From positions 1 through 64,000 of the forward strand of contig JALHRS010000031.1 in NCBI GenBank assembly GCA_022841325.1: a stretch of 64,000 nucleotides of DNA, given 5' to 3'. The position numbers were made by a program, and so were the translations under genes. How positions within the stretch are numbered: the stretch's first letter is position 1; the number at the start of each line of letters is the position of its first letter. The DNA is from Lysobacterales bacterium. Lineage in GTDB: Bacteria > Pseudomonadota > Gammaproteobacteria > Xanthomonadales > SZUA-5. Below, piece by piece: positions 48,450-50,726 of the stretch. A model generated the notes under the pieces. It was not told the origin of the DNA, ran no database searches, and saw nothing but the letters and a program-made list of their open reading frames with translations.

Positions 48450-49045
48450 TGGTTCACGCTTCATGGCGAGCCACCTGTGTCTGCCCGACACTGCGCACGG
48501 GCCCTGAGCCAGCGTATGAGGTAGCGCGGCTCCGGCGCGCGGCGAATCGGGATGTGCGCCAGGGCTGTTCGCGCCGGCGGCCGCGGCATGGCCGCGCACA
48601 GGCCCTGAACCCCGAGCGTCATTGCGACCCCGGACTTGATCCGGGGGAAGCAATCCAGAGGCCTGCGGCGCTACCCTGGATTGCTTCGTCGCTGGGCTCC
48701 TCGCAATGACGCATCAATCACTGAAGGCATGGGTTCATCGAGAGCCCCCGGTATTGACCCGGCACTGTCCACGGGCCAACAACGTAGGTTGGGCTAAGCG
48801 CAGCGTGCCCAACGGTCATGGCTGCGAGTCACTCGCCATCATGAGATCGCTGGTGCCATGACCGTTGCGTAGGGTTTCTTGCCTAACCCCTCCCCAGCCC
48901 TCCCCGAACATCGGGGAGGGAGCGACAGCACTCGCCTGAACGACTTTCACGGCAACCTACATCGACTGTAGGAGCGACCTCGCGTCGCGACCGGCCAGCC
49001 GCACGACCGCAGCAGCGGTCGCGCCGCAAGGGCGCTCCTACGGGT
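48450..49045. repeat. Dense repeat island (GCCACCTGTGTC, GCGTCATTGCGA, GTAGGTTGGGCTAAGCGC, CCCTCCCC hairpin, TGTAGGAGCGACC REP)
   Basis: Several palindromes; matches elsewhere in the window for the first two families. Confidence 0.8.
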
Positions 49046-49104: not shown

Positions 49105-49132
49105 CTTGAAAGCTCACGGCCGGCCCACATTT
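49105..49132 (+). promoter_or_regulatory. Sigma-32-type heat-shock promoter
   Basis: CTTGAAA - 12 nt - CCCACATTT upstream of hsp20. Confidence 0.75.
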
Positions 49133-49143
49133 CATGGTCAACA

Positions 49144-49180
49144 GCGACATCTCGTCGCGATCACACTCAAGGAGTTGATC
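49144..49180 (+). promoter_or_regulatory. Candidate RNA thermometer (two hairpins, second hides the Shine-Dalgarno)
   Basis: GCGAC-ATCTC-GTCGC, then GATCA(C)ACTC-AAG-GAGT-TGATC directly before ATG. Confidence 0.6.
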
Positions 49181-49627
49181 ATGGCCATTACCCGTTACAG
49201 CCCGTTCAATGTCTCGACCCAGGTTCCGAACGATTTTCGTGAGCTGATCGAGAAGTTCTTCAATGGTGAGCCGCAGGATCAGTCCAATGTGGTCACCAGC
49301 CAGTGGGCACCGCATGTGGACATCAAGGAAGAGCCCAACCGCTTCGTGATCCAGGCCGATATCCCCGGTGTAGACCCGAAGGACATCGAAGTGCATATGG
49401 AGAAAGGCATTCTCTCGATCAAGGGCGAGCGCAAGCATGAGGCCAAGCAGGAGAGCGAGAAGTACACCCGTGTGGAACGCTCCCACGGCGTCTTCTACCG
49501 CCGCTTCGCGCTGCCCGACAGCGCCGACGCCGAAGGCATCAGCGCCCACGGCAAGCATGGTGTGCTGGAAATCGTCATTCCCAAGCGCCCGGAGACCACG
49601 CCGCGCCGGATCACGATCAACCATTGA
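49181..49627 (+). CDS. Hsp20/alpha-crystallin small heat-shock protein
   Basis: VDIKEEPNRFVIQADIPGVDPKDIEV; GVLEIVIPK. Confidence 0.95.
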   Translation: MAITRYSPFNVSTQVPNDFRELIEKFFNGEPQDQSNVVTSQWAPHVDIKEEPNRFVIQADIPGVDPKDIEVHMEKGILSIKGERKHEAKQESEKYTRVERSHGVFYRRFALPDSADAEGISAHGKHGVLEIVIPKRPETTPRRITINH

Positions 49628-49814: not shown

Positions 49815-50726
49815 ATGCGATTCAAGGATTACTACGAAGTACTCGGTGTGAAAGCGGATGCGAGCGATGCCGACATCAAGGCCGCCTATCGCAAGCTGGC
49901 GCGCAAGTACCATCCGGATGTCAGCAAGGAAAAGGATGCCGAGAGTCGCTTCAAGGACATCAATGAAGCCTACGAGGCGCTGCGCGAACCGGAACGCCGC
50001 AAGGCTTACGATCAGGCCAAGGCCAACGGTTTCCGCGCTGGCGACGAGTTCCGCCCCGGTCCGGGCGGCGGCGGTGGCTTCGAGTTCGATATGGGCGATG
50101 CCGGCAACGGGCAGTTCAGTGATTTCTTCGAATCGCTGTTCGGGCGCATGCGCGGCGGTCGCCCGGGCGCGGGCCCGAGGCGTGGGCACGGCCCGGAATC
50201 GGGCGGCGAGATCCGCGCCGAGCTGGAAGTGGATCTGGCCACCGCCTTTGCCGGCGGCAAGCAGCGTTTCAGTCTGCAGGGCGCCCGCGGCCTGCGCACG
50301 CTGGAGGTCAAGATTCCCAAGGGCATCCAGTCGGGGCAGAGCATACGGCTGTCCGGCCAGGGCCACGTCGGCCCGGACGGCACCCCCGGCGATCTGCTGC
50401 TGCAGATCAAGCTGCGTCCGGACGAGCGTTTTGCCCTCGATGGCCGCGACATCACGGTGCAACTGCCGATTGCTCCCTGGGAAGCAGCACTGGGCGCGCG
50501 CGTGGCGGTGCCGACGCTGGGCGGCGAAGTCGAAATGGCCATTCCTGCCGGATCACAGAGCGGCCGCCGGCTGCGGCTGAAGGGTCGCGGGCTACCCGGA
50601 CATCCGGCCGGCGACCAGTTCGTGGTGCTGCAGATCCACACGCCAGCGGCGCATGGCGACGCCGACCAGCAGGCCTATGAAAGCCTGCGCGCACATTTCA
50701 GCCAGTACGACCCGCGCAAGCGCTGA
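49815..50726 (+). CDS. cbpA: DnaJ-class co-chaperone (CbpA-like)
   Basis: KDYYEVLGVKADASDADIKAAYRKLARKYHPDVS. Confidence 0.93.
   Translation: MRFKDYYEVLGVKADASDADIKAAYRKLARKYHPDVSKEKDAESRFKDINEAYEALREPERRKAYDQAKANGFRAGDEFRPGPGGGGGFEFDMGDAGNGQFSDFFESLFGRMRGGRPGAGPRRGHGPESGGEIRAELEVDLATAFAGGKQRFSLQGARGLRTLEVKIPKGIQSGQSIRLSGQGHVGPDGTPGDLLLQIKLRPDERFALDGRDITVQLPIAPWEAALGARVAVPTLGGEVEMAIPAGSQSGRRLRLKGRGLPGHPAGDQFVVLQIHTPAAHGDADQQAYESLRAHFSQYDPRKR

Follow-up and report, generated by a model that had tools for sequence, protein, structure and literature searches.

A heat-shock promoter and a conserved 5'-terminal stem-loop in the hsp20 leader of a Lysobacterales bacterium

Which part of the short leader of this small heat-shock gene has been selected, and what might it do? 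The gene, hsp20, lies in a stretch of 64,000 nucleotides (the window) of a Lysobacterales assembly of 6.1 Mb in 365 contigs, whose closest relatives are Lysobacterales metagenome genomes. Its product matches Pfam PF00011 at 87.6 bits, its start codon is the ATG at 49181, and a DnaJ/CbpA-type gene follows at 49815-50726. A sequence-only reading of this DNA had proposed a σ32 promoter and an RNA thermometer, the latter formed by the second of two hairpins in the leader. The features considered here are as follows.

49105..49111, forward strand: σ32-type −35 element CTTGAAA, conserved upstream of Lysobacterales hsp20 genes
49125..49132, forward strand: σ32-type −10 element CCACATTT (consensus CCCCATTT, spacer 13)
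49139..49140, forward strand: CA initiator, with A49140 as the inferred transcription start
49144..49158, forward strand: hairpin 1, GCGAC-ATCTC-GTCGC, a 5'-terminal stem-loop lying about 4 nt past the inferred start and showing conservation and covariation in Lysobacterales
49159..49180, forward strand: hairpin 2, GATCA(C)ACTC-AAG-GAGTTGATC, in which GAG from the Shine-Dalgarno (SD) sequence is paired; particular to this genome
49169..49174, forward strand: SD sequence AAGGAG
49181..49627, forward strand: hsp20, 148 aa, Hsp20/alpha-crystallin family

By scanning the 6.1-Mb genome for CTTGAAA, 13–14 nt and CCCCATnT with at most two mismatches we obtained 56 sites, compared to 17 for the reversed pattern. 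The hsp20 promoter departs from the pattern at a single position and is among only six sites with no more than one mismatch. Sites found in this way also precede clpP, grpE, groES and lon in the same genome (names assigned by reading translations), and a promoter of the same type occupies the same place in nearly all Lysobacterales hsp20 genes examined. The promoter claimed earlier is borne out by this recovery of known heat-shock genes and by its presence upstream of hsp20 across the order, and the −10 element then given, CCCACATTT at a spacing of 12 nt, coincides with CCACATTT at 13 nt. Judged from sequence, there is strong support for a genuine, near-consensus heat-shock promoter. Immediately upstream of it, at window positions 48967-49041, is an imperfect inverted repeat, GTAGGAGCGAC...GGGCGCTCCTAC, which resembles REP-type repeats, and a short GC-rich repeat-like stretch, CCCTCCCCGAACATCGGGGAGGG, lies at 48885-48925.

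A pyrimidine followed by a purine is the usual initiator. When the relatives are aligned on the −10 element, most have a CA dinucleotide 6–8 nt downstream, and a second criterion finds a CA initiator in 79 of 94 leaders. Since the relatives share this CA, transcription of hsp20 probably begins at A49140, which gives a leader of 41 nt (the median of the relatives is 40.5). The minimum free energy fold of 49130-49200 (−21.9 kcal/mol; z = −3.6 relative to dinucleotide-shuffled sequences) includes both hairpins together with a 7-bp closing stem, AUGGUCA/UGGCCAU, whose 5' arm is 49134-49140. We discarded the closing stem because this arm lies almost wholly upstream of A49140; on folding from A49140 it is largely lost, while hairpins 1 and 2 are both kept.

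Hairpin 1 had received only passing mention in the sequence-only reading. It is present as a predicted structure, with arms GCGAC (49144-49148) and GTCGC (49154-49158), folds alone at −6.2 kcal/mol (p = 0.01 against chance for the window sequence) and, by comparison of leaders, is the conserved and covarying element of the hsp20 leader. In 74 of 96 leaders the SD is preceded by a strong stem of 5 bp or more (13.8 expected from shuffles), and these stems comprise 63 distinct sequences with a nearly constant start position. Under a position-restricted criterion, 83 of the 94 hsp20 leaders from Lysobacterales have a GC-rich 5'-terminal hairpin, where shuffles would give 17.0; the set is partly metagenome-assembled and its leaders are related rather than independent, so that shuffle expectations overstate the significance. 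The stem starts mostly 1–4 nt past the conserved CA initiator, placing it within a few nucleotides of the 5' end as reckoned from the inferred start. An alignment of the leaders made with MAFFT and no structural information (A1) has the consensus nCAnGCGGC...GCCGC. In its hairpin 1 columns 91.7% of cells are paired and there are 16 double-sided changes; none of 500 shuffles matched this level of pairing, partners slid out of register paired in only 26–62%, and RNAalifold recovered the same stem. The hairpin is rare outside the order, occurring in 5 of 38 other gammaproteobacterial hsp20 leaders. The hsp20 leaders of Thiodiazotropha and Chromatiaceae (L071-L077) are longer and carry other hairpins in a different arrangement. 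Literature searches, partial in coverage, returned no report of hairpin 1 in Xanthomonadales.

Inverted repeats at a fixed distance from a promoter could also act as DNA, hairpin 1 as the site of a repressor binding downstream of the start and hairpin 2 as a CIRCE-like site, whose ACTC/GAGT resembles part of CIRCE. We regard this as very improbable, since hairpin 1 stems vary with compensating changes, unlike a fixed operator. The spacer of CIRCE is 9 nt whereas that of hairpin 2 is 3 nt, and CIRCE identity was rejected because of this spacing.

We also searched with a composite model of promoter and hairpin (R1). In its own genome hsp20 is the sole significant match, and across 41 genomes of Lysobacterales the model also finds clpB and dnaK (identified from translations). 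Leaders of clpB, dnaK and groES were then sampled by protein, independently of R1, and scored by criteria which were set once hsp20 and a small number of clpB and dnaK matches had been looked at, and which were applied equally to all genes. A 5'-terminal hairpin is present in 24 of 43 clpB leaders (7.1 expected) and 14 of 21 dnaK leaders (2.0 expected), with clpB leaders of one family (f1) an exception in having no clear hairpin; groES leaders are not enriched (4 of 26 against 3.1 expected). By eye, a 5'-terminal hairpin is also seen in several dnaK leaders for which no promoter was scored, including those of this genus: in two of them (L354 and L358) GGGG-CCAGT-CCCC, and in a third (L355) a GGGG/CCCC hairpin, stands shortly after the −10 element, and the loops differ among the three genomes.

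These comparisons bear on two further explanations. That both hairpins are simply by-products of GC-rich sequence would suit hairpin 2, which alone is near chance level at 65% GC, but for hairpin 1 it is excluded by the shuffles, the fixed position, the covariation and the groES negative control, making it a highly improbable account of the pair. The main alternative for hairpin 1 is that it mainly insulates folding or acts as a translation-enhancing spacer, keeping the 5' end off the SD with no effect on decay. The short spacing between hairpin 1 and the SD, mostly 7–12 nt and varying little, would fit, as would the finding that mutations in hairpin I of Pseudomonas ibpA altered repression by the thermometer (PMC3669281). 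However, the position of hairpin 1 is tied to the start of the transcript and the hairpin recurs on clpB and dnaK leaders, both of which suit a function at the 5' end, and we consider insulation unlikely.

Hairpin 2 is likewise present as a predicted structure, just before the hsp20 ATG: GATCA-C-ACTC (49159-49168) pairs with GAGTTGATC (49172-49180) around an AAG loop (49169-49171). It had been said to bury AAGGAG; this holds for the GAG, which is in the stem, and fails for the AAG, which forms the loop. Folded alone it reaches −6.4 kcal/mol. Composition-preserving shuffles fold as well in 3–4% of cases (p = 0.03–0.04), and random flanks of 65% GC around the same SD do so in 12% (p = 0.12). It is tied as the most stable among 96 relatives, although chance also yields one extreme in 96, and 4 of 25 strong-SD starts in a 464-kb background were at least as stable, a comparison of little weight given the crude gene calling.

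On these grounds hairpin 2 might be a species-specific thermometer sequestering the SD, and hairpin 1 its stable scaffold, in a two-hairpin layout like that of Pseudomonas ibpA (PMC3669281) without its ROSE motif; small heat-shock genes frequently have thermometers. The relatives speak against it. They lack hairpin 2 or form it far more weakly, and this includes both members of the same genus. In the nearest, L002, whose protein is 88% identical, TTGATC still precedes the ATG but the 5' arm differs; a weaker hairpin can form at the same place with the SD in the loop, a point in favour of the thermometer. The other (L003) has no hairpin of comparable strength there. The 22 nt before the ATG reach only −1.2 to −1.8 kcal/mol in four loci of the same genus or family (correct start). 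The covariation check proposed for hairpin 2 gave no compensatory changes in relatives, and we found no conserved or covarying helix sequestering the SD in close relatives. Across 93 Lysobacterales leaders the mean unpaired probability of the SD is 0.397 compared to 0.400 with shuffled spacers (p = 0.41). At every temperature half of the SD is looped out, and the hairpin is predicted to stay closed up to 50–55°C, although melting predictions of this kind are unreliable and carried no weight in the verdict.

Known thermometer families were also sought. Neither the window leader, at gathering and relaxed thresholds, nor 20 relatives gave an Rfam thermometer match, whereas E. coli ibpA, the positive control, reached 100 bits as ROSE_2. 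Membership of ROSE or fourU was dropped, as Rfam returned only spurious microRNA models, which arise from the repeat at 48967-49041. The U(U/C)GCU anti-SD motif occurs in only 2 of 93 leaders, with no covariance-model match, and ACUC rather than UUUU stands opposite the SD, in agreement with the earlier reading, which noted the lack of the UUUU of fourU and saw no clear ROSE motif. The thermometer itself is not borne out by the relatives: hairpin 2 is not conserved and is near chance, and predicted accessibility of the SD across the order matches that of shuffled controls. We therefore think a thermometer here rather unlikely. Hairpin 2 is no conserved thermosensor but a structure peculiar to one genome, which may be due to chance; in this species part of the SD is paired in it, which may dampen translation. 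In Dokdonella, two hsp20 leaders (L023 and L024) have a comparatively stable structure over the SD after hairpin 1, and CTCC...GGAG in L023 is a possible independent SD-sequestering hairpin.

For the leader as a whole we lean, somewhat above even, towards a 5' untranslated region of about 41 nt transcribed by σ32, of which hairpin 1 is the selected part and shields the mRNA from decay. The promoter, the hairpin position, its covariation and its occurrence on clpB and dnaK were established computationally; stabilisation of the RNA is the most likely function of the hairpin, by analogy. It is favoured because of the precedent of 5'-terminal stem-loops in E. coli and of hairpin I in Pseudomonas ibpA. 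An mRNA starting at A49140 would present about four unpaired bases and then a GC-rich stem-loop, which would hinder removal of pyrophosphate by RppH and 5'-end sensing by RNase E, while translation would initiate at the SD downstream. Hindered 5'-end-dependent decay would give longer-lived hsp20, clpB and dnaK mRNAs in Lysobacterales. Some points count against shielding: the roughly four unpaired 5' nucleotides here (2–3 in most relatives) may still allow RppH to act, hairpin 1, at −6.2 kcal/mol here, is less stable than is typical of the order (median −8.65 kcal/mol), and the clpB leaders of family f1 are without a clear hairpin. More tentatively, and a little short of even, we propose that a position-fixed, covarying 5'-terminal hairpin on hsp20, clpB and dnaK (not groES) raises transcript lifetime in heat shock in Lysobacterales. 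If true, a post-transcriptional layer would be coupled directly to the heat-shock promoter.

Among known systems, Synechocystis hsp17 (PMC4477652) also has a short hairpin with one bulge over the SD of a small heat-shock gene; that hairpin traps AGGA and the AU of the start codon, whereas hairpin 2 here pairs only GAG and leaves the AUG outside. Hairpin 1 can be compared with the 5'-terminal stem-loops which shield the E. coli ompA and papA mRNAs from 5'-end-dependent decay (work cited in PMC3997798). In both cases the stem-loop sits at, or very close to, the 5' terminus, but hairpin 1 is short (5–7 bp), lies just past σ32 promoters and recurs on the mRNAs of several chaperones within a single order, and its stabilising effect is inferred. 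Pseudomonas ibpA (PMC3669281) is likewise a small heat-shock gene with a σ32 promoter and a short leader, in which a thermostable and GC-rich first hairpin (hairpin I), close to the 5' end, precedes a second hairpin containing the SD. The hsp20 leader differs in having neither the U(U/C)GCU motif nor an Rfam ROSE match, in its length (about 41 nt compared to 61–62 nt) and in that its hairpin 2 is unconserved. The role of hairpin I was called not fully understood in that study, which suggested that it may prevent degradation of the transcript, citing stabilisation by 5'-terminal stem-loops in E. coli, and stated, as data not shown, that in Pseudomonas the mRNA of ibpA exceeds those of dnaK, groEL and grpE in stability. 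The model put forward here for hairpin 1 offers a testable answer to the question posed by Pseudomonas ibpA, namely what a heat-insensitive first hairpin is for.
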